This document shows, piece after piece, positions 32,969 to 47,279 of a stretch of 48,886 nucleotides of DNA (within the stretch, counting starts at the first letter, position 1; every line of letters begins with the position of its first letter). Origin of the DNA: Bacteroidales bacterium. GTDB taxonomy: Bacteria; Bacteroidota; Bacteroidia; Bacteroidales; NBLH01. The translations under genes were made by a program, and so were the position numbers. The notes under the pieces were generated by a model, which ran no database searches, was not told the origin of the DNA, and saw only the letters and a program-made list of their open reading frames with translations. The stretch covers positions 1-48,886 of the forward strand of contig JAFGWC010000012.1 in the NCBI GenBank assembly GCA_016937695.1, given 5' to 3'.

Positions 32969-33091
32969 TTATCACAAATAAATTTTCATTAAAAAAGTAT
33001 AATTATTTATTTTATTTAAAAGCCGAATTTAAACAAATGTGTTTTATAACATAAAAAATTCATATGAATTTATTTGCCTTTGAACAGCCTA
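32969..33091. other. AT-rich spacer between the cytochrome c gene and the first leader element
   Basis: First part of the 458-base gap before the peptide genes. I see no gene, terminator with a T-tract, or full promoter here; TTTGCC near 33074 lacks a correctly spaced TA. Confidence 0.5.
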
Positions 33092-33370
33092 TTTAACCTA
33101 TGATACCTAAAAACGAATATATTAAATGTATTCCAAAGCCTATAAATAACTTGTTTATAGAGCAGAAACTGCACACTTATATTCTTAAGTTACTTAAATT
33201 ATCTCTTATTAGTATATATATATACTAATAAGCAATTTAAAGCTGACTTTAGAAAAGGAAACAAAAAATAATTTATTGCCTTTTTATATTAAAAACGAAA
33301 GGGGCATTTACAAACACCTTTATCCATTCGAATTTAAACTCCAGCATTGGTAGCCCCCCACTTCGGGAGC
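33092..33370 (+). repeat. Leader element copy A, candidate structured RNA before the peptide genes
   Basis: Shares four blocks in the same order with copy B at 45491-45738: CCTATGATACCTAAAA (33097-33112, identical); a hairpin CTATAAATA-ACT-TGTTTATAG (33140-33160) whose counterpart is CTGCAAACA-TCC-TGTTTGTAG; TTAAAGCTGACTTTAG (33237-33252); and TTGGTAG with a C-run/GGGAGC hairpin (33347-33370). The 9-bp stems differ at three pairs, all keeping pairing, including T-A to C-G. A second small hairpin, GCAG-AAA-CTGC (33162-33172), follows. Both copies precede Cys-rich peptide genes, so a regulatory RNA or other conserved leader is likely. It is not a family I recognise. Confidence 0.65.
33205..33232. 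repeat. Perfect 28-bp palindrome
   Basis: CTTATTAGTATATA followed by its exact complement TATATACTAATAAG, inside leader element A. It could be a protein-binding site or a cruciform-forming sequence. The other leader copy has an AG repeat and a different hairpin at the equivalent place. Confidence 0.85.
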
Positions 33371-33426
33371 AAAGATAAAAAATGAGGAGATAGTAAATCA
33401 AAATTATAATATTCAAATGTATTAAA

Positions 33427-33663
33427 ATGAAAAAACTTATTCTATTAGGAGTTTCAATATTAGTTATTGGCTTTATAAGTGGTGTTAATCTAAAAACACC
33501 TACAAATAACAATAAAAATATTTTGGTAATTGAAAACAGACAAGCAATTGCCACAATGCAATATAATTGCAACTGGAGAGGGTGGCTTGGAATTAGACGT
33601 TGTGAGGCTCATTGTTCTACAGATACTGCAAGTTGTACTAGAAGTGGTGGTTGCCATTGCTGA
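33427..33663 (+). CDS. Cys-rich NVEALA-like secreted peptide 1
   Basis: 78 aa precursor. Residues 3-20 are hydrophobic (LILLGVSILVIGFISG), then an Asn/Lys-rich linker, then ENRQAIA (36-42), which resembles the NVEALA motif and ends in an A-x-A type cleavage site. The remaining ~36 residues hold six cysteines (48, 59, 63, 70, 76, 78) and begin CNWRGWLGIRRCE. Peptides 2 and 3 share C-x-W-x-G-W and the Cys48 position, and all six Cys could form disulfides. No modification enzyme is adjacent. Role unknown: bacteriocin, signal or surface peptide are all possible. It is the first gene after leader A. Confidence 0.85.
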   Translation: MKKLILLGVSILVIGFISGVNLKTPTNNNKNILVIENRQAIATMQYNCNWRGWLGIRRCEAHCSTDTASCTRSGGCHC

Positions 33664-34033: not shown

Positions 34034-34276
34034 ATGAAAAAAATTATTTTATTAAGTGTATCAATAATAATTTTTGGTCTTATTGTTGGGACAAATGTCA
34101 AAACAAATATTGATAATAGCAATAGTGCTTTAATAATTGAGAATACAGATGCATTTGCTACAATGGCGAAATCATGCTCTTGGACTGGGTGGTTTGGGAT
34201 AAGACATTGTGAAATATCATGCTCTGCTTGTAGTTATGTTGAATGTTCTCGTAGAGGTGGTTGCGTAGCCGGTTAA
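34034..34276 (+). CDS. Cys-rich NVEALA-like secreted peptide 3
   Basis: 80 aa. ENTDAFA at 36-42, then CSWTGWFGIRHCE and six Cys (48, 59, 63, 66, 71, 77). It is closest to peptide 1 in the GIR-x-CE segment and to peptide 2 in CSWTGWF, so the three look like recent duplicates with exchange or recombination among them. The ~100-base gap after it contains no further gene. Confidence 0.85.
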   Translation: MKKIILLSVSIIIFGLIVGTNVKTNIDNSNSALIIENTDAFATMAKSCSWTGWFGIRHCEISCSACSYVECSRRGGCVAG

Positions 34277-36625: not shown

Positions 36626-37804
36626 TTGCAAAAAGCTGCTATATATTTGGTTATTTTGATTGTTTCGATAATATTTTTTATTATTCTAAATCTATATTGG
36701 CTAATTCCTCTTTTTTTGCTTTTAAGTTTAGCATATTTGTTTATTAAATCTAAAAGCAAGTTAGTTTTATTTATCGTTAAGATTCGTATTTTACATTATC
36801 TTTTAGTGATTATCAGTGTTTTATTGTTGGGTGTATTTTCGAGACTTTTCTTTTTTGAAATATTTACTATACCTTCTGCCTCAATGGATAATACAATGAA
36901 GGTAGGGGATAAAATAATTGTAAGTAAATTACAATATGGACCTCGTTTGCCACGGTCAGGTTTTGAAATTCCTTGGTTAAATTTGTTTTGGTATTTAAAT
37001 AATAATGCAAGATTAGATTTGGGTAAAAATGAGTGGGGTAACAAACGTTTATCTGGGTATTCGAAAATAAATAGAGGTGATATTGTTGTTTTTAACAACC
37101 CTGGTAATATGTTTGAGTTTTACATAAAACGTTGTGTTGGTTTGGCGGGGGATAGTTTGCAAATTACAAATAGCAAATTGTATATTAACAAAAAAATACA
37201 AATATTGCCTGAAAAAGCCAAATCAGAATATAAAATATATTGTCCAGATCAAACATTAGTTCTTAAACAATTAGACAGTTTAAATATTTATGTAACTAAT
37301 TTTTTCATACAAAAACAAAAAGTAAAATATTTATTATGTAATATTAGTAAGCGAAAAAAAAACATTATTGAAAGTTTATCAACTGTTGATTCTATAATTA
37401 TTTCTATTAAGGGAATTGAATATCACCAAGGTATTTTTCCAAAAGACAGTTCTTATAAATGGACACAGGATAATTTTGGTATATTATGGATACCTAAAAA
37501 AGGTTCAAAAATAAAACTAAATGATAGAAATTATGTATTTTATGCGGACATAATCAATAAATTTGAAAATAGTACCATAATAAAAACCGATAATGGGTTT
37601 TTTATTGGTAATAAACGTATAAAAAACTACCGTTTTAAGCAAAATTATTATTTCATGATGGGCGATAACCGACACCAATCGATGGATTCACGTTATTGGG
37701 GTTTTGTGCCTGAAAGTCAGATAGTTGGCAAGGCAGTTTTGGTGCTATTTTCAAATGATCATGACGGAATAAAGTGGAATAGGATATTGAAATCAGTGAA
37801 TTAG
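36626..37804 (+). CDS. lepB: Signal peptidase I, atypical, inside the peptide locus
   Basis: 392 aa. About three hydrophobic segments precede the S26 domain: IPSASMDNTMKVGD with catalytic Ser86, then YIKRCVGLAGDS with general-base Lys168, and MGDNRHQSMDSRYWGFVPES (345-364), all canonical boxes. A ~170-residue insertion lies between the last two, larger than in standard LepB. There is no in-frame ATG before the conserved part, so TTG at 36626 is the likely start. Housekeeping LepB genes normally lie elsewhere. Its place between peptide and transporter genes suggests it cleaves the A-x-A sites of the peptide precursors. Confidence 0.85.
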   Translation: MQKAAIYLVILIVSIIFFIILNLYWLIPLFLLLSLAYLFIKSKSKLVLFIVKIRILHYLLVIISVLLLGVFSRLFFFEIFTIPSASMDNTMKVGDKIIVSKLQYGPRLPRSGFEIPWLNLFWYLNNNARLDLGKNEWGNKRLSGYSKINRGDIVVFNNPGNMFEFYIKRCVGLAGDSLQITNSKLYINKKIQILPEKAKSEYKIYCPDQTLVLKQLDSLNIYVTNFFIQKQKVKYLLCNISKRKKNIIESLSTVDSIIISIKGIEYHQGIFPKDSSYKWTQDNFGILWIPKKGSKIKLNDRNYVFYADIINKFENSTIIKTDNGFFIGNKRIKNYRFKQNYYFMMGDNRHQSMDSRYWGFVPESQIVGKAVLVLFSNDHDGIKWNRILKSVN

Positions 37805-37940: not shown

Positions 37941-38333
37941 ATGAAAAAACTATATTGTTTAATTTTATTTTCATTAATTTTGCGTGTTCAGAAGCTTCTA
38001 TTCAAAGCAATGATGCTATAATAGAATTTGAAAATATAGAATTTGATTTTAAACAGCTTAAATATGAAGAAAATGCTGAATGCTTTTTTGAGTTTTCAAA
38101 CTCAAGTAATTCTATACTAATAATACAAAATGTTAGTACTTCATGCGGTTGTACCGTTTCAGAATGGCCCAAAGAACCAATTATTCCAAAACAAAATGGA
38201 AAAATTAAAATTAAGGTATGATACATCATATTATGGAAATTTTTCTAAAACCATAAAAGTTTATTATAATGGTAAAGATTCACCTGTAGAATTAATTATA
38301 AAAGGAAGTGTAAATTATCCAAATGATTTATAA
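37941..38333 (+). pseudogene. DUF1573 lipoprotein gene with two frameshifts
   Basis: ATG 37941 opens MKKLYCLILFSLI in one frame. The continuation ACSEASIQSNDAII is in the next frame and would make the lipobox LIFACS if one T were added at 37977-37981. The DUF1573 core follows (IEFENIEFDFKQLKYEENAECFFEF, NVSTSCGCTVSEWPKEPI). At 38215-38216 one extra G breaks the frame again, and the rest (YDTSYYGNFSKTIKVYYNG to the end) is in a third frame. The combined length ~130 aa fits the family. With two independent shifts it is a pseudogene. Confidence 0.88.
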
Positions 38334-38405: not shown

Positions 38406-39517
38406 ATGAACAAAATAATTTTAATCTTGTTTCTATTATTCTTGATTATCCGATGTAATAATAACTCTCATGATGAAGAGCACAAAACTAATAACCAAAT
38501 TAGTGATAGCTTAATTAATATGGAATCTACCGTTTCTGAATTAAAGGAAGGTACAATAAATATATATGAAGATGATTTTGGCGAAATAATAGAATTAATT
38601 GGTAAAGCTTTTGATTTGCATCAAATATTTAAACCAAAAGAAGTGGAAATGATCCTTAAAGATGACTATTTGATTCTTAAAACAATTCAGAATAAAAACA
38701 TGTTTATGGTTTTTTCAATTCCTGAATTTAAATTAGTACATTCTTGCGGTGTGCAAGGAGTAGGCCCCGATGAATTTGTTTATCCAAATCTTGTACAAAC
38801 CGAGGAGGAGGATAAATTATGCTACGTATACGCGCCAACTAACGAAAAGCTCTATTACCTTACAAATGACTTTAAATTAATTAATTGCACTTTTGGTTTT
38901 CCAAAAGGCAAAATTCGAGCATCAGCAGAAAAACAAATCCATGTTTTATCAAAAAATGAATTATTATATGTTAGGGCATCAGATAAGGGTAAAAAAATAA
39001 TTAGGTTATTACCAGATTCTGTGGAACCCGAAACTGAAATGAAAACCTAGCTCTTGATAAGAAATATAAAAATTGGGCAGCCTATATTGGCAGTTTTGGG
39101 GTAAATTTTAATAAAGACTGTATGGTTTATGCATGTAAGTATTTTAGACAAATAAAATTCCTAAGTCTGGATGGCAAAAAAGAACGTCATCTGATATTTG
39201 ACCAAAATAAGACTAAATCTGGTAATACTAAAGCTATGCTAGCACCCACAAATATAACTTATTACTGGAAAATATCTCAAACCAGTGAAAATGTTTATCT
39301 CTCTTACAGTGGGCGTACTCCTATTGAAGTAGGAAACGACTTTAAAAAAGGGATAGATTATATTCATATTGAAGAGTTTGATTGGAATTGAAACCCAAAA
39401 CGCAAGTTTAAACTTGATAAGTGGGGCTATTTTTGTGTGGATGAAAAAAGGGGTAAAATTTATTTGGTAACAACTAATGATGAAAATCCATTTTATGTAT
39501 TTGATATTCCAGAATAA
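38406..39517 (+). pseudogene. TolB-like six-bladed beta-propeller lipoprotein gene with a frameshift and a stop
   Basis: Lipoprotein start MNKIILILFLLFLIIRC. HSCGVQGVGPDEFVYPNL is the propeller hallmark (G-x-GP-x-E/D-F). One A is missing in the run at 39042-39045, so the frame moves from MKT-stop to NLALDKKYKNWAAYIG. Further on, TGA at 39389-39391 interrupts HIEEFDWN-stop-NPKRKFKLDKWGYF, where relatives have a Gly codon (GGA). The gene then reads to FYVFDIPE and ends at TAA 39515. Total would be ~370 aa. Two lesions make it a pseudogene. Confidence 0.87.
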
Positions 39518-39577: not shown

Positions 39578-40657
39578 ATGAAAAAAATATTGACAAATAT
39601 TTTATTTATAGCATTGATATCCAGCTTGTTTTCTTGCAAGTTTCAGAATGGCAATGCTGCTGACAATTCTGAAAAAAGACAATATCAGGATGAAAAAAAC
39701 ATTGTTGATGTTATTGTTTTAAAAAAAGCAGTTTTTAATAAAGAACTTGTCAGTAATGGTAAACTCAAAGCTTTTCAAAAGAGTATTTTAAAATTTGAAA
39801 CAAGTGAAAGACTTACAGAATTGTATGTAAAAAACGGCTCTTGGGTAAAAAAGGGAAGTATAATTGCTAGCGCCAACAAAATAAAAGCTCAGCAAAAGCT
39901 AGACCAGGCTATTCTGCAATTTAAAAAAGCAAATCTAACCCGGCAGGAATTATTAATTGGGCAAGGTTTTGAAGTAGATAGTGCTTCTAAAATACCTAAA
40001 GATATTTTAGAAATTGCTAATATCCGTTCAGGTTATAGTTCTTCTGAAAATGAATTGAATGTTGCACGTTATAACTATAATACTTTAACTCTTATAGCAC
40101 CTTTTTCAGGTATTATAGCTAATCTTAAATGTAAAATACACGAAAATGTAAATTCCGGCGAAGAATTTTGCTCTTTAATTGATGATAGTAAATTTGAAGT
40201 AGAATTTTCTTTAATTGAAAAAGAGTTGCAGCAAATAAAAATTAAACAAGCTGTAAAAATACATTCTTTTTCTAGTGGGAAAATCTACAGCGGATTTGTT
40301 AATGAAATTAACCCGGTGGTGGAAGAAAACGGAATGGTAAAAATAAAAGCTCTAATTTCGAACTCAGGTGATTTAATGGAAGGAATGAACGTAGAAGTCA
40401 TTATTGAAAACAAAATTCCAAATCAAATGGTTGTGCCAAAATCAGCTGTAGTATTAAGGCAAAACAAGGAAGTCCTATTCCGCTACATCAACGGTAAAGC
40501 ATTCTGGACTTATGTAAAAACTGAATTTGAAAATAGTAATTCCTATACAATAAATGCAAACATAGACAGGGGAGCAGAAATAAATGTTGGCGATACAATT
40601 ATTATATCAGGCAATCTTAATTTAGCTCATGATTCAGAAGTTGAAATTGGGAATTAG
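39578..40657 (+). CDS. Periplasmic adaptor (membrane fusion protein) of an RND efflux system
   Basis: 359 aa lipoprotein (ISSLFSC, Cys20). Layout: barrel-sandwich half (KLKAFQKSILKFETSERLTELYVKNGSWVKKGSII), a short coiled-coil hairpin, second half motif (YNTLTLIAPFSGIIANLKCKI), beta-barrel domain (KIHSFSSGKIYSGFVNEINPVV) and membrane-proximal domain. It bridges the RND pump encoded 126 bases downstream to the TolC-like channel. With the adaptor, pump and channel in one direction this is a complete tripartite set. Confidence 0.9.
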   Translation: MKKILTNILFIALISSLFSCKFQNGNAADNSEKRQYQDEKNIVDVIVLKKAVFNKELVSNGKLKAFQKSILKFETSERLTELYVKNGSWVKKGSIIASANKIKAQQKLDQAILQFKKANLTRQELLIGQGFEVDSASKIPKDILEIANIRSGYSSSENELNVARYNYNTLTLIAPFSGIIANLKCKIHENVNSGEEFCSLIDDSKFEVEFSLIEKELQQIKIKQAVKIHSFSSGKIYSGFVNEINPVVEENGMVKIKALISNSGDLMEGMNVEVIIENKIPNQMVVPKSAVVLRQNKEVLFRYINGKAFWTYVKTEFENSNSYTINANIDRGAEINVGDTIIISGNLNLAHDSEVEIGN

Positions 40658-40783: not shown

Positions 40784-43700
40784 ATGGTAAAATTCCTAAT
40801 TAACCGTCCTATAGCAGTTTCAATGAGCTTTTTGGCTATTGTAATACTTGGTATAATAGCGATGTTTCAAATACCAGTTTCTTTATTACCTTCTATTGAT
40901 ATTCCCAAAATTACTGTTCAAGTAGTTAAACAAGACAGTCCGGCGCGCGAACTTGAAAATACTATGATAAACCCACTACGCCAACAATTAATGCAGCTTG
41001 GTGGTTTACATGATATTAGGAGCGAAACTAAGGATGGAAACGGGCTAATCCATCTTGATTTTGAACATGGTATTAATATAGATTTTGCTTTTATTGAAGT
41101 AAATGAAAAAATTGATAGAGCAATGGGGCATTTACCCAATAGTACCACTCGGCCAAAAGTAATAAAAGCAAGTGTAACCGATATTCCTGTTTTTTATCTT
41201 AACCTAACTTTAAAAGAAGAACTTGAAATTGATAATACAAATAAAGATTTATTTCCTGTTACAGAACAATTTATGGAACTAAGTCGTTTCTCTGGGCAGG
41301 TTATCAAAAAAAGAATAGAGCAACTACCTGAAGCTGCCATGGTTGACATTAGCGGGCAAGTGTTTTCCGAAATATTAATAATACCAAATATTAAAATACT
41401 TGAAAGCCTTGAAATAAGCTTGTTTGAACTTGAAGCAATCATTAAAAAAAACAATGTAAATTTTGGAAGTTTATTGATAAGAGATGGTCAATATCAGTAC
41501 AACATCAGATTTACTAATTCTTTAAAGAATAAAAAAGATATTGAAGACATTTTTTTTAATAAGAACGGACGATTATTTCAACTAAAAGATATTGCAGATA
41601 TTGTTGAACATCCTCAGAAATCTAAGGGATTAATTACATCTGACGGTAAGCATTCAATTTCGATGGCAATAATTAAACAGTCTGATGCAAAAATACAAAA
41701 TATTGAAAATAATTTACACGAATTAATAAAAATATTTGAAATTGATTATCCATTAATCGAATTTAAAGTTACTCGCGATCAAACAAAATTGCTGGACTAT
41801 ACCTTATCTAACCTTCAACAAAGCCTTGTTTTAGGTTCATTACTGGCATTTTTAGTTATGTTTTTCTTTCTCAAAGATTTTAAATCGCCACTCTTAATAG
41901 GTATTGGTATTCCTGTATCGCTTATTATTACATTGTTGTTGTTTTTCCTTGCAGGAATTTCCATTAATATTATTTCGCTTTCAGGTCTTATACTTGGTAT
42001 TGGCATGATGATAGATAACTCTATTATAGTTATAGATAATATTACGCAGCACTACCAAAGATCAAACAAGCTTGAAGAGTCGTGCATAAACGGCACGAAT
42101 GAGGTATTTCGTCCTATGCTTAGCTCGGTACTTACAACTTGTGCAGTTTTTATTCCTTTAATTTTTATTGGTGGTATTTCAGGAGCTTTGTTTTATGAAC
42201 AGGCAATTGCTATTTCTATTGGTTTAATAATTTCATTGGTTGTGTCAATCTCCTTATTACCAGTTTATTATAAACTATTGTATAAAAAAAAGGATAAGAA
42301 AAAAAATATTAAATTGCTTGAGAAAATTAATCGAATAAATTATGAAAAACTATACTCAAAAGGTTTTAGGTTAATTATGAGGAATCAGCTTTTTGCATTT
42401 TTGCTATTTGTAGTTTTTATTCTTGCTGCAATTGCTTTATATCCATTTATTGATAAATCGCAATTACCTGAAATTACAAAAGACGAAATTATGTTAAAGA
42501 TTGACTGGAATCAAAGAATACACATTGATGAAAATAATAAACGGGTAAAACTATTAATGGGTGCTTTGGAGGAATATACCGAACATTATACTGCAATGGT
42601 TGGTAATCAGCAATTTCTTCTCGATTTTAATAATGAAGCATCTTCAGCAGAATCTTTAATCTACATTAAATCAAAATCATCTAAAAATCTGAATAAGATA
42701 AAAAAATATATTCGTGATTTTTTACATGATAATTACAAAACGGCTTCGTATTCTTTTGAAGACGCTGGAAATATATTTAATGTTATTTTTGCTGACAATG
42801 AAGCGCCATTGATTGCTCGACTAAGGCCAGTTCAAGAATTTGGAAATGAACAAAATTATTTTCTTGAAGAAAATATTAAACTGCTTCGCAAAAAACTACC
42901 GGATTATACTATCCCTAATCCAGTTTTTAAGGAATTTATGATATTACAAACAAATCCGGCGCAATTATTATTGTATGATATTTCTTTTAACGAAGTTTAT
43001 AGTACATTAAAAAGTGCTTTTAACGAACGCAATGTGTTTCTAATTGCCGATAATAATGAATTTGTTCCAGTTATTATGGGTAAAAGGTCTGAGCTTATAA
43101 AAGATATTATCAAAAAAACGATGATCCCAAATAGCAAAGGTGAACTAATACCAATACGAAATCTTTTATCAGAACAAAGAGCTTATGATATAAAAACTAT
43201 TATTGCAGGACAGGAAGGTGAATACTACCCAATTGAATTATATGAACTTAAAAGTGATATTAAAATATTGCAAAAAACTATCAGAAAAACATTAAAGCAA
43301 AGCAAACAGTTTGAAGTAAGTTTTACAGGCAGCATTTTTTCTAATGATAAGTTAATTAAGCAATTAATAATTATTTTATTAATATCCTTATTGCTTTTAT
43401 ATTTTATTTTAGCCTCACAATTTGAGTCTCTAAGTCTGCCTCTTATTGTATTATTTGAAGTACCAGTAGATATTTTTGGAGCATTCCTGTTTCTGAAAAT
43501 ATTTGGAGCAACAATAAACCTAATGTCCCTTATTGGCATTGTTGTGATGAGTGGTATCATTATTAATGATTCGATCCTAAAAATAGATACCATAAATCAA
43601 TTAATGACAAAAGGTTATTCATTAATACATGCACTGGTTGAAGCTGGGCACAGAAGATTAAAACCAATTTTAATGACCAGCTTAACAACTATTTTAGCTC

Positions 43701-43867
43701 TAACACCTTTTTTGTTTACTAGTGGACTTGGCTCTGATTTACAAAGACCACTGGCTTTAGCAATTATTGGAGGTATGGTTATAGGGACACTAGTAAGTCT
43801 ATATTTTATTCCTTTGTTCTATTATTTATTGAAAAGAAATAGAAGAGGGAGTAATGTAATTATATAA
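40784..43867 (+). CDS. RND family efflux transporter (inner-membrane pump)
   Basis: 1027 aa, full length, with 12 predicted helices and two large periplasmic loops. It starts FLINRPIAVSMSFLAIVILG, a typical RND opening, and has PVSLLPSIDIP, a porter-domain mark. The helix-4 motif is GIGMMIDNSIIVIDN (Asp411-Asn412 where AcrB has two Asp). The helix-10 motif is VVMSGIIINDSIL, with Asn where AcrB has Lys940. Only one of the three classic proton-relay residues is therefore kept. Substrate is unknown; peptides, lipids and small drugs are all possible. It is intact, unlike several genes upstream. Confidence 0.93.
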   Translation: MVKFLINRPIAVSMSFLAIVILGIIAMFQIPVSLLPSIDIPKITVQVVKQDSPARELENTMINPLRQQLMQLGGLHDIRSETKDGNGLIHLDFEHGINIDFAFIEVNEKIDRAMGHLPNSTTRPKVIKASVTDIPVFYLNLTLKEELEIDNTNKDLFPVTEQFMELSRFSGQVIKKRIEQLPEAAMVDISGQVFSEILIIPNIKILESLEISLFELEAIIKKNNVNFGSLLIRDGQYQYNIRFTNSLKNKKDIEDIFFNKNGRLFQLKDIADIVEHPQKSKGLITSDGKHSISMAIIKQSDAKIQNIENNLHELIKIFEIDYPLIEFKVTRDQTKLLDYTLSNLQQSLVLGSLLAFLVMFFFLKDFKSPLLIGIGIPVSLIITLLLFFLAGISINIISLSGLILGIGMMIDNSIIVIDNITQHYQRSNKLEESCINGTNEVFRPMLSSVLTTCAVFIPLIFIGGISGALFYEQAIAISIGLIISLVVSISLLPVYYKLLYKKKDKKKNIKLLEKINRINYEKLYSKGFRLIMRNQLFAFLLFVVFILAAIALYPFIDKSQLPEITKDEIMLKIDWNQRIHIDENNKRVKLLMGALEEYTEHYTAMVGNQQFLLDFNNEASSAESLIYIKSKSSKNLNKIKKYIRDFLHDNYKTASYSFEDAGNIFNVIFADNEAPLIARLRPVQEFGNEQNYFLEENIKLLRKKLPDYTIPNPVFKEFMILQTNPAQLLLYDISFNEVYSTLKSAFNERNVFLIADNNEFVPVIMGKRSELIKDIIKKTMIPNSKGELIPIRNLLSEQRAYDIKTIIAGQEGEYYPIELYELKSDIKILQKTIRKTLKQSKQFEVSFTGSIFSNDKLIKQLIIILLISLLLLYFILASQFESLSLPLIVLFEVPVDIFGAFLFLKIFGATINLMSLIGIVVMSGIIINDSILKIDTINQLMTKGYSLIHALVEAGHRRLKPILMTSLTTILALTPFLFTSGLGSDLQRPLALAIIGGMVIGTLVSLYFIPLFYYLLKRNRRGSNVII

Positions 43868-43884
43868 TAACTAATTAAAAATTA

Positions 43885-45384
43885 ATGACTAATACACTAA
43901 TTATAATGACTAAACATGTGCTGGTTATTTTGTTTTTAATCGCTTACATTTCAATGTCTTCTCAGGAAACAGAAAAAATAAGCCTTGATCAAATAATAAA
44001 TCTCGCTGAAAAGCAATCACTTGATGCTTTCAAGGCAAAAAATATGTATTTGGCTAACTATTGGGAGTATCGATCTTTTAAAGCAACACAATTGCCTTCG
44101 CTCGACTTAAATTTACAGCCTATAGAATTTCGTAGAATGATGACAAAACGTTATGATTTTGACCAAAATATTGATATTTTTAGAGAACAAAAGACAATGG
44201 AAAGTTATGCTAATCTAGCTTTAAGTCAATACATTCCATATACTGGTGGAACTGTTTATATCGACAGTGATCTATCACGACTTGTAAATTACACCGAAGA
44301 TGAAGTAACAACTTTTAGTGCTACATTGGTCAGGATAGGATTAAATCAACCTATTTTTGGGTTTAATGAACAAAAATGGGCGAAAAAGTTATCTCCTCTA
44401 AAATTTGAAAAGGCAAAGCAAGAGTATATTCAATCAATGCAAGAAACAAAACTTAAAGCTTTAGATTTATTTTTTAATTTATTATTGGTAAAAATTCAAA
44501 AAGAGATAGCTGAAAGTAATGTGGCAACAGCAGATACACTTTATAAGGTTGGTAAGCGAAAATTTGCAATTCTATCTACTCAAAGAGAAGAACTTTTAGA
44601 TTTAGAATTAAGTAAATTTAATGCTGAAATTGAAGTTGTAAAGGCAAACCAAAACCTCGAAAAAGCCAAGTTTAGTTTGAACTCATTTCTAGGATTGGAA
44701 AATACTACAAATAAGACACCAATTACTCCTTCTATAATAAATGACCTTTATATTAATCAACAACAAGCCATTGAAATTGCCTTGAAATCTAATCCCGATA
44801 TTATTGGTATCAAACAAAATCAAATTGAGGCAGATCGTAATTTAGATAAAGCAATTAAAGAAAATCGTTTTAGTGCTAGCCTTATGGCAAGTTTTGGACT
44901 TAATCAAAATGCTGAAGTATTACCAGAAGCATATATAAATCCTTTAGACCAACAAGTGCTTGTGTTCGGTATAAAAATTCCGATATTAGACTGGGGTAAT
45001 AGAAAAGGTAAAAAGCAAATGGCACAGAGTAACAGAGAGGTAACTTATATAGAATCCAAACAACAGCTTAGCGATTTTAAACAAAATATATCATTAAAAA
45101 TTCTTGATTTTAATTTACAAGCAAAAATTGTTCAAAGTGCTGCTAAAGCAAATGATTTGGCAAATGAATCTTATCAGTTGACAAAAAAAAGATTTCTTCT
45201 TGGTGAAGCAGACGTATTAAAAGTTACTAATTCGATGCAAGCCAGGCAGTCAGCGCAAGAAAAGTATATTATAAGTATATATACCTTTTGGAAATATTAT
45301 TATGAAATTCAGCAACTTACTTTGTATGATTTTAAGGAGAATAAAAACATAAGTATTGAATTTGAAAAACTAATTGAGAAATAG
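43885..45384 (+). CDS. TolC-family outer-membrane channel
   Basis: 499 aa. Signal peptide (MTKHVLVILFLIAYISMSSQ from the second ATG; the first ATG at 43885 adds seven residues). Two repeated halves of long helices and short strands follow: ISLDQIINLAEKQSLDAFKAK, then QQAIEIALKSNPDI, both typical OEP repeats. ILDWGNRKGKK is the usual mid-protein mark. It forms the outer-membrane duct for the adaptor and pump encoded just before it, only 17 bases apart. Confidence 0.92.
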   Translation: MTNTLIIMTKHVLVILFLIAYISMSSQETEKISLDQIINLAEKQSLDAFKAKNMYLANYWEYRSFKATQLPSLDLNLQPIEFRRMMTKRYDFDQNIDIFREQKTMESYANLALSQYIPYTGGTVYIDSDLSRLVNYTEDEVTTFSATLVRIGLNQPIFGFNEQKWAKKLSPLKFEKAKQEYIQSMQETKLKALDLFFNLLLVKIQKEIAESNVATADTLYKVGKRKFAILSTQREELLDLELSKFNAEIEVVKANQNLEKAKFSLNSFLGLENTTNKTPITPSIINDLYINQQQAIEIALKSNPDIIGIKQNQIEADRNLDKAIKENRFSASLMASFGLNQNAEVLPEAYINPLDQQVLVFGIKIPILDWGNRKGKKQMAQSNREVTYIESKQQLSDFKQNISLKILDFNLQAKIVQSAAKANDLANESYQLTKKRFLLGEADVLKVTNSMQARQSAQEKYIISIYTFWKYYYEIQQLTLYDFKENKNISIEFEKLIEK

Positions 45385-45490: not shown

Positions 45491-45738
45491 TTTAAACCTA
45501 TGATACCTAAAACAGAATATTATAACCATAGATATTCAATGTCTGCAAACATCCTGTTTGTAGAGAGAGAGAGAGAAATCAGCCAGCAGTTTTCTCTATA
45601 CTTTTTAGTGCTTACAAATCTCTTGAAAATTTTCAAACACGATACATAAACCTAGCTTTTAAGCGGACTGAAGCCGTTAAAAAGAGCACACAAATTTTTA
45701 CAATTAAATTGCAATTTTGGTAGTTCCCTTTTGGGAGC
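45491..45738 (+). repeat. Leader element copy B, candidate structured RNA before peptide 4
   Basis: Homologous to copy A at 33092-33370. CCTATGATACCTAAAA (45497-45512); hairpin CTGCAAACA-TCC-TGTTTGTAG (45543-45563); an AG-repeat (45562-45576) feeding a second stem; TTAAGCGGACTGAAG (45659-45673); and TTGGTAG with GTTCCC-TTTT-GGGAGC (45717-45738). Spacing between blocks is similar to copy A up to the first hairpin and looser later. Compensatory stem changes between the copies support an RNA structure. No protein-coding frame is shared. Confidence 0.65.
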
Positions 45739-45843
45739 GGTGTATTATTTATTTGAGATACTATGACTTTTTTGCTGTTTACTTCATAGATTAAAATATA
45801 AAAACAGGCATAAAATTAATTTATAAACTTAAAATAAATAAAA

Positions 45844-46083
45844 ATGAAAAAGAATATAAAAAAAATCATAATAACTAGTATATTAACTATAGCTGCAATG
45901 TTATTAAATTTTCAAGGAAATAATGAAAATAATTCTTTTATTGGATTTGAAACAGTTCAGGCAGAAAAGGATGGGATTTCATTTTGTGTTCATGGTGGAA
46001 CAAAATGTTGTTATCCAATAAGTGTAGGATTCGCCTGTGGCGAAGGACCTTGGTTAGATTGTAGAGGGACTTGGATTATGTAA
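45844..46083 (+). CDS. Cys-rich secreted peptide 4 (distant NVEALA-like)
   Basis: 79 aa. Hydrophobic N-terminus, Asn-rich linker (QGNNENNSFIGFE), then TVQAE (37-41) with an A at 40, and a mature part with five Cys (48, 55, 56, 65, 73): CVHGGTKCCYPISVGFACGEG. The first Cys is at 48, as in peptides 1-3. The mature sequence is otherwise unrelated, so it is a separate peptide type with the same leader plan. It is preceded by leader B and followed by a strong hairpin. Confidence 0.8.
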   Translation: MKKNIKKIIITSILTIAAMLLNFQGNNENNSFIGFETVQAEKDGISFCVHGGTKCCYPISVGFACGEGPWLDCRGTWIM

Positions 46084-46095
46084 TTTTAATAATAA

Positions 46096-46129
46096 AAGCA
46101 TTCAATAATTTAAAAATTATTGAATGCTT
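46096..46129 (+). terminator. Strong hairpin between peptide 4 and the downstream operon
   Basis: A near-perfect 16-bp inverted repeat, AAGCATTCAATAATTT with its complement (46096-46111 and 46114-46129), loop AA. There is no clear T-tract, so it may be a partial terminator or an mRNA-stabilising end that lets the small peptide gene be expressed more than the genes after it. Confidence 0.6.
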
Positions 46130-46151
46130 AATTAATTCAAATATAAATAAA

Positions 46152-47279
46152 ATGAATATATATTCAAAAAAGCATATTTTAAAATTCATAATTATAATTA
46201 TTTTTTATAACACTATAGGATGTGAAGGACAGTCCGTTAGTTCAAATTTTAATAAAAAGTCAAAAGTCAAAATTGAGGAAATATTTAGCCAATCATTACA
46301 ACAGGGCTCTTTTTTTTCAAGTAGTGGGAAAAATTTAATTTGTTGGTCACCAGGTAACAATATTATAAAAAAATATGATATTAAAAAAAGAAAATTCTAC
46401 GATGAATATAAAACCGAAATTAAAGATTCAAAACAATACATTGATTTTGCAAATATAGGTAAAGATTCATTAGTTTTTTTTCATTGGATGGATAATTATA
46501 CAATGTATTTAACTTATAGAGGTAAAATAATTAAAACATATAATTTAACTCCAAAAAAATCTGAAAATATTTTATCATGTATAAAATCAGGTCACCCTAC
46601 ATGTAATTTAGATGGAACTGATAGAAATACTCTTATTGGCGATTATTTTTATTTTTCTGCATATAAAATGGGTGAAAAATTTATTGACAAACTGTATAGT
46701 GGCGGTAAAATTAATTTAAAAACAGGTAAATTTGAATACTTTACCGAGTTTCCTGAGATTTACCGTAATTATAATTGGGGTGCTATGCGTTATTATTTTC
46801 CATACATAACAATAAACAAATTAAAACAAATTGTGGTAAGTTATCCTGCCTGTCATGATATATTTGTTTATGATACAAAAAAAGGAACAAAAAAAAGAAT
46901 TAAAAGTGGCAGTTCTTTATTTAAAACAATAAAACCATATTCTGATAAAAAAGAAATAGTTTTAGAGTTAAAGTCTGAATATATGAAGTATTATGAACAA
47001 AATTATGCTTATGGAGATATATCTTATGATAGGAGAAGAAAACTATATTACAGACTTGCTGTTTTCCCAAATATAAATTATGGAAAATCAAGTGATAATA
47101 CCCGAAAAAAATCATTAATAGTTTTGGATAAAAACTTTAAATTTATTGGTGAAGTAGTATTACCTACTGATAAAAATTATCATAATTTAACAGATACTGA
47201 TTATGAGTTAGTTGTTATTTATTATGATTTTAGTAAAAGCACTTATGGTTTTACATTGTTTAAAATAAATATTTTATGA
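46152..47279 (+). CDS. DUF4221-like lipoprotein
   Basis: 375 aa from the ATG at 46152; an earlier in-frame ATG would start inside the hairpin region. Lipoprotein-like signal with TIGC (Cys24). The body has repeated beta-strand blocks (YFPYITINKLKQIVVSYPAC, KLYYRLAVFPNIN, LIVLDKNFKFIGEVVLP) like DUF4221, a propeller-type Bacteroidota family found with six-bladed propeller genes. The stop overlaps the next start codon (ATGA), so the two are translationally coupled. Family call is moderate. Confidence 0.65.
   Translation: MNIYSKKHILKFIIIIIFYNTIGCEGQSVSSNFNKKSKVKIEEIFSQSLQQGSFFSSSGKNLICWSPGNNIIKKYDIKKRKFYDEYKTEIKDSKQYIDFANIGKDSLVFFHWMDNYTMYLTYRGKIIKTYNLTPKKSENILSCIKSGHPTCNLDGTDRNTLIGDYFYFSAYKMGEKFIDKLYSGGKINLKTGKFEYFTEFPEIYRNYNWGAMRYYFPYITINKLKQIVVSYPACHDIFVYDTKKGTKKRIKSGSSLFKTIKPYSDKKEIVLELKSEYMKYYEQNYAYGDISYDRRRKLYYRLAVFPNINYGKSSDNTRKKSLIVLDKNFKFIGEVVLPTDKNYHNLTDTDYELVVIYYDFSKSTYGFTLFKINIL

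Follow-up and report, generated by a model that had tools for sequence, protein, structure and literature searches.

Bacteroidota secrete numerous peptides, most of them uncharacterised, and the timing of their production is little understood. The locus described here raises the question of whether genes of this kind share a control element placed in front of them. It lies in a Bacteroidales bacterium (assembly GCA_016937695.1, contig JAFGWC010000012.1), of which a stretch of 48,886 nucleotides, called the window below, was analysed. An earlier note, made from the letters alone, had pointed to two related intergenic copies, A and B, each preceding a gene for a Cys-rich peptide, and had read compensatory changes in one of their hairpins as selection on RNA structure. 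The peptide genes are indeed where it put them, with three after copy A and one after copy B.

33427..33663, + strand, secreted Cys-rich peptide gene 1, 78 aa
33773..34003, + strand, secreted Cys-rich peptide gene 2, 76 aa, with a weak NVEALA match below the Pfam cut-off
34034..34276, + strand, secreted Cys-rich peptide gene 3, 80 aa
34377..35054, + strand, 6-bladed beta-propeller gene (DUF5128)
36626..37804, + strand, signal peptidase gene (Peptidase_S26)
39578..40657, + strand, gene for a HlyD-family export protein
40784-43867, after the HlyD gene, RND-like gene, by inspection of sequence and order
43885-45384, after the RND-like gene, TolC-like gene, by inspection of sequence and order
45844..46083, + strand, secreted Cys-containing peptide gene, 79 aa, after leader B
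46071..47279, + strand, propeller-like gene (DUF4221)

The window is thus ordered as leader A, three peptides, propeller, signal peptidase, HlyD/RND/TolC-like exporter, leader B, peptide and DUF4221 gene. The peptides are NVEALA-like by layout only: against Pfam PF14055, with its curated cut-off of 27 bits, they reach 17.1 and 12.0 bits, and the others give no match. A DUF1573-like frame and a propeller gene (37955-38333 and 38406-39391) each seem to be split in two frames, and these splits appear to be gene decay or assembly errors.

The sequences in front of the two sets of peptide genes contain the following features in their 5' parts.

33083..33426, + strand, leader A, about 345 nt, 5' of the first peptide gene, with a putative 5' end
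45492..45843, + strand, leader B, with an uncertain 5' end
33095..33112, + strand, block 1, AACCTATGATACCTAAAA, identical in B at 45495-45512
33115..33133, + strand, small hairpin GAATATAT-TAA-ATGTATTC from predicted folds, with a B counterpart at 45515-45537
33140..33160, + strand, hairpin quoted by the earlier note, copy A, CTATAAATA-ACT-TGTTTATAG
45543..45563, + strand, the same hairpin in copy B, CTGCAAACA-TCC-TGTTTGTAG

That two copies stand about 12.4 kb apart is clear from block 1, which is exact in both at a distance of 12,400 nt; the rest of the source genome holds no further copy of it, except for one match with three mismatches. The two intergenic regions align with a local score of 66, compared with a maximum of 39 in 500 dinucleotide shuffles, and the likeness is confined to the first ~110 nt; 3' of the quoted hairpin, pairwise likeness is by itself not significant. 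Folding of both leaders beats that of shuffled sequences (z of -3.5 for A and -3.1 for B). A second hairpin common to A and B, GAATAT..RTATTC, follows block 1 directly, ahead of the quoted one, and had not been listed before. Among the features that differ, leader A has a perfect A+T palindrome, TTATTAGTATATATATATACTAATAA, at 33206-33231 that copy B does not share. Copy B has a (GA)6-8 run after the quoted hairpin (45562-45577), which two leaders of genome G004 (L166 and L165) also have at that position and which, as a dinucleotide run, could change in length through slippage.

The quoted hairpin was described correctly, in that each copy forms nine pairs, three of which differ, one of them by a double change from T-A to C-G. 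It does not carry the conclusion that was drawn from it. Between the stems there are four differences, all of them transitions, and when every placement of four transitions was enumerated, 16% kept the nine pairs and 10% kept them with a double change included. No counterpart of this hairpin was found beyond A and B in 7 genomes of the genus and 393 of the order. With a 16% chance of survival and two copies only, the stem at 33140-33160 is on its own no argument for selection on RNA. The A/B 5' part as a whole, searched as model R1 and as a 17/18-mer, has no real relatives in the same 7 and 393 genomes or in 84,980 species genomes; of the database matches, those that were inspected overlap reading frames, with the others scattered across other phyla, as expected by chance.

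Owing to the A+T-richness of the region, BLAST with the leaders themselves gave nothing above background in 295 genomes of the order. A profile built from the window's four peptides led to a locus with peptide and propeller in the same-genus genome G002; its truncated upstream sequence resembles leader A over the 3' part, with a score of 82 (maximum of 500 shuffles, 66). A covariance model, R2, was built on the 46 nt shared by A, B and one G002 copy. Within the genus it finds 11 copies of 27-56 bits in five of seven genomes, namely A and B, five in G002, two in G004 (one weak), one in G003 and a weak one in G001. Beyond the genus, among 393 genomes of the order, the best two matches are in G244 (36.7 bits) and G180 (36.4 bits) and the third is in G360 (29.8 bits), so that the core is found in four families of one order, its own and three others. 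The noise floor lies at about 29-30 bits; R3 matches of ~30 bits in G117 and G119, inside or beside unrelated genes, define this level. R2 matches at or below 29.0 bits (such as those in G371, G155, G197, G179, G231 and G310) were not accepted and are without peptide context: that of G371 overlaps a tRNA-Met gene, and the others overlap coding sequences or have unrelated neighbours. The G360 copy was taken in on gene context, not on score. Phages, plasmids and viral contigs gave no relatives, and the peptide and propeller loci of G259, G293 and G315 do not contain the element, which therefore belongs to a subset of such operons.

What is widely conserved is the last block of the earlier note (TTGGTAG-hairpin-GGGAGC), as part of a core of 46-48 nt that reads UUnAAnnnCAG..UUUUGGUA-hairpin-AAAGAUA. 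Near the 3' end of the leader, it is laid out as a single strand (UUnAAnnnCAG), a UUUU strand, a GGUA bulge, a hairpin of 5-6 bp and, usually, AAAGAUA.

33330..33377, + strand, core of leader A, from models R2 and R3
45700..45744, + strand, core of leader B, from the models
33353..33370, + strand, covarying core hairpin of A, GCCCCC-CACTTC-GGGAGC
45723..45738, + strand, covarying core hairpin of B, GTTCCC-TTTT-GGGAGC

The idea of a leader with compensatory stem changes thus survives at a different place: the covariation is real in the hairpin at 33353-33370 and 45723-45738, and not at 33140-33160. Over 13 distinct sequences, many of them from one genus, the upper stem is 97.1% paired, a figure helped by an alignment fitted to a model that holds the same hairpin, and four of its six pairs have changed on both sides. 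Its covariation is 0.363, compared with 0.202 +/- 0.031 for shuffled versions and at most 0.135 for versions slid along the alignment. A hand-made alignment of the stem agrees, and of its wobble cells, four fit the sense RNA and one the antisense. A lower stem of UUUU with AAAG across the GGUA bulge is plausible, though paired at only 76%.

Wherever the downstream gene can be read, the copy lies 49-195 nt 5' of secretion genes on the same strand; counted from the end of the motif to the start codon, the distance is 49-99 nt in ten copies and 195 nt in G001. Nine of the 11 copies in the genus precede small signal-peptide genes, which begin with MKK or MRK and a signal-peptide-like start and usually encode Cys. 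One, in G003, precedes a secreted C10 (streptopain-type) protease with a Spi pro-domain instead of a peptide (L167:187-1395), and one, in G004, runs into the contig end. A propeller-type gene comes after the peptide in G002 and G001, followed in G002 mostly by one more small, lipoprotein-like CxxC gene (by inspection). Other families vary the theme. For example, in G244 a 57-aa Cys-rich peptide lies ~140 nt 3' of the element and is followed by a DUF4221 gene, and in G180 a 68-aa double-glycine bacteriocin-like peptide lies 62 nt 3' of it, ahead of an exporter of the C39-peptidase ABC type. In G360 the element stands 140 nt before a HlyD gene, whose product is 49% identical to the HlyD protein of the window, with an RND-like gene adjoining. 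The leader candidate of the earlier note is borne out in so far as other genomes also contain the element, in front of genes for NVEALA-like and other secreted peptides. At the G180 locus (L194:7653-10373), the peptide weakly matches Bacteriocin_IIc, and a small membrane-type protein is encoded alongside.

Leaders in G002 and G004 have sense promoters of the form TTG-N19/20-TAnnTTTG, 230-400 nt 5' of the motif, a pattern that fits the published sigma-ABfr consensus (PMC7366714). This promoter type, like the protein families, points to Bacteroidota. Region A aligns to the canonical TATATTTG promoter of one of the G004 leaders. On this alignment the start of leader A is placed near 33083, where its transcript would begin, behind a candidate box with one mismatch to TAnnTTTG.

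33069..33076, + strand, candidate -7 box of leader A, TTTATTTG

The element would then be transcribed together with the downstream operon. Its position on the same strand 5' of related genes and the covariation of its upper stem, albeit in a small set and a partly fitted alignment, are those of a cis-regulatory leader RNA. Since it recurs before several operons per genome and across families, it is most likely a control point shared by their mRNAs and acting in cis, and we consider it reasonably probable from these comparisons that it represents a new family of cis-acting 5' leader RNA common to secreted-peptide operons.

How well does this account for the data compared with a signal in the DNA itself? 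On the minus strand, the 3' end of the core reads TAnnTTTGC, which is the -7 box recognised by the principal sigma factor of Bacteroidota, and it could belong to a promoter or operator, with an antisense transcript driven from the core or a regulator bound to the inverted repeat. We judge this unlikely and keep it mainly because TAnnTTTG occurs there in nine of 14 copies; it is also in its favour that two G002 copies differ in nn while TA and TTTG are unchanged. Against this, the full box is missing in B, C139, G244, G360 and G001, and by inspection only A has a -33 TTTG at usable spacing. An antisense transcript would start within the hairpin, and the wobbles favour the sense strand; an antisense promoter is only partly consistent with the data. 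The same hairpin, short and G+C-rich within an A+T-rich intergenic region, invites comparison with a terminator or the 3' end of a separate intergenic small RNA. It is followed in almost all copies by an AAAGATA-like sequence and by no T run on the sense strand, and it keeps its short distance from the downstream peptide gene in ten copies while the upstream genes vary, which makes such a role improbable.

Two further readings concern the history and coding capacity of the leaders. Upstream DNA without function might have been copied along with the peptide genes and have stayed similar through gene conversion, as could be supposed from G002 copies that are 98-100% identical over 119-150 nt, up to the hairpin, and from the absence of the A/B 5' part in the other genomes searched. 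The core, in contrast, is retained across families with compensatory changes after the surrounding sequence has been lost, and stands before unrelated types of peptide and exporter; we give duplication alone little credence. A leader peptide that attenuates the operon would be suggested by the ATG of block 1, which opens frames of 42 aa in A and 49 aa in B, both starting with MIPK and with a 3-nt gap that preserves the frame. However, A and B differ at 8, 8 and 4 of the 22 first, second and third codon positions, respectively, so constraint does not act on codons. In G002 the only short frame is a different one that is not constant, and the conserved core does not code for protein. This is the least credible of the explanations.

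Under the cis-acting leader RNA that we favour, the core within the ~345-nt leader would serve the peptide operons as a common point of control at the mRNA level. It might be bound by a small RNA, a metabolite or a protein, or the hairpin might exchange with a longer pairing between its 5' arm and a purine strand upstream; either would alter the translation of the peptide mRNA, its stability or its read-through. We infer alternative pairing or protein binding as the mode of action.

33297..33305, + strand, purine strand GAAAGGGGC, by complementarity a possible alternative partner for the core hairpin's 5' arm, suggestive only

In most copies a purine strand 35-55 nt 5' of the hairpin can pair with the 5' arm and loop. 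The predicted minimum-energy fold contains this pairing in two G002 copies and the hairpin in two others, and a test for coevolution of purine strand and 5' arm gave p = 0.08; the predicted alternative pairing in the leaders is suggestive only. A more specific version, which we put forward tentatively, is a riboswitch-like or protein-binding leader class of one Bacteroidota order, in which a switch from the bulged hairpin to the longer purine-strand pairing, or back, would govern peptide secretion across the unrelated RND and C39 ABC routes. It is just as speculative that the peptides under such a class would be antimicrobial or signalling and their secretion co-ordinated.

To our knowledge, no equivalent of this element has been described. 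No Rfam family matches it at gathering or relaxed thresholds in the window, both leaders or six related contigs. It resembles the 'Cis-reg' leaders of Rfam, such as riboswitches and ribosomal-protein leaders, in its conserved, covarying structure, its presumed 5' leader position and its several copies before functionally related operons of one genome; it differs in having no Rfam match and in being restricted, as far as seen, to one lineage. Bacteroidales structured RNA candidates from human microbiomes (PMC8040213) are likewise from Bacteroidota, some of them near radical-SAM or secretion genes; the element may coincide with one of them, although the main text of that study names none before secreted-peptide operons. 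Bacteroidetocin and other Bacteroidales peptide clusters (PMC6671954, PMC10352776) also combine small secreted peptides with dedicated exporters, and the G180 locus, with its GG-leader peptide and C39 ABC exporter, is of their kind; a shared leader element does not appear there under the terms looked up. A literature search returned no description of a shared leader for Bacteroidota peptide operons and no mention of NVEALA. On sequence grounds, this is probably an RNA element, not described before, that controls peptide secretion. A leader common to many peptide operons and two export routes would provide a sequence handle for such operons, and would offer a direct route to the signal that switches them on.

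Several of the G002 contigs (L160, L162, L163 and L164) end in identical stretches of 141 bp. Repeats of the peptide operon probably broke the assembly at these points, and G002 may contain a multi-copy or variable array.
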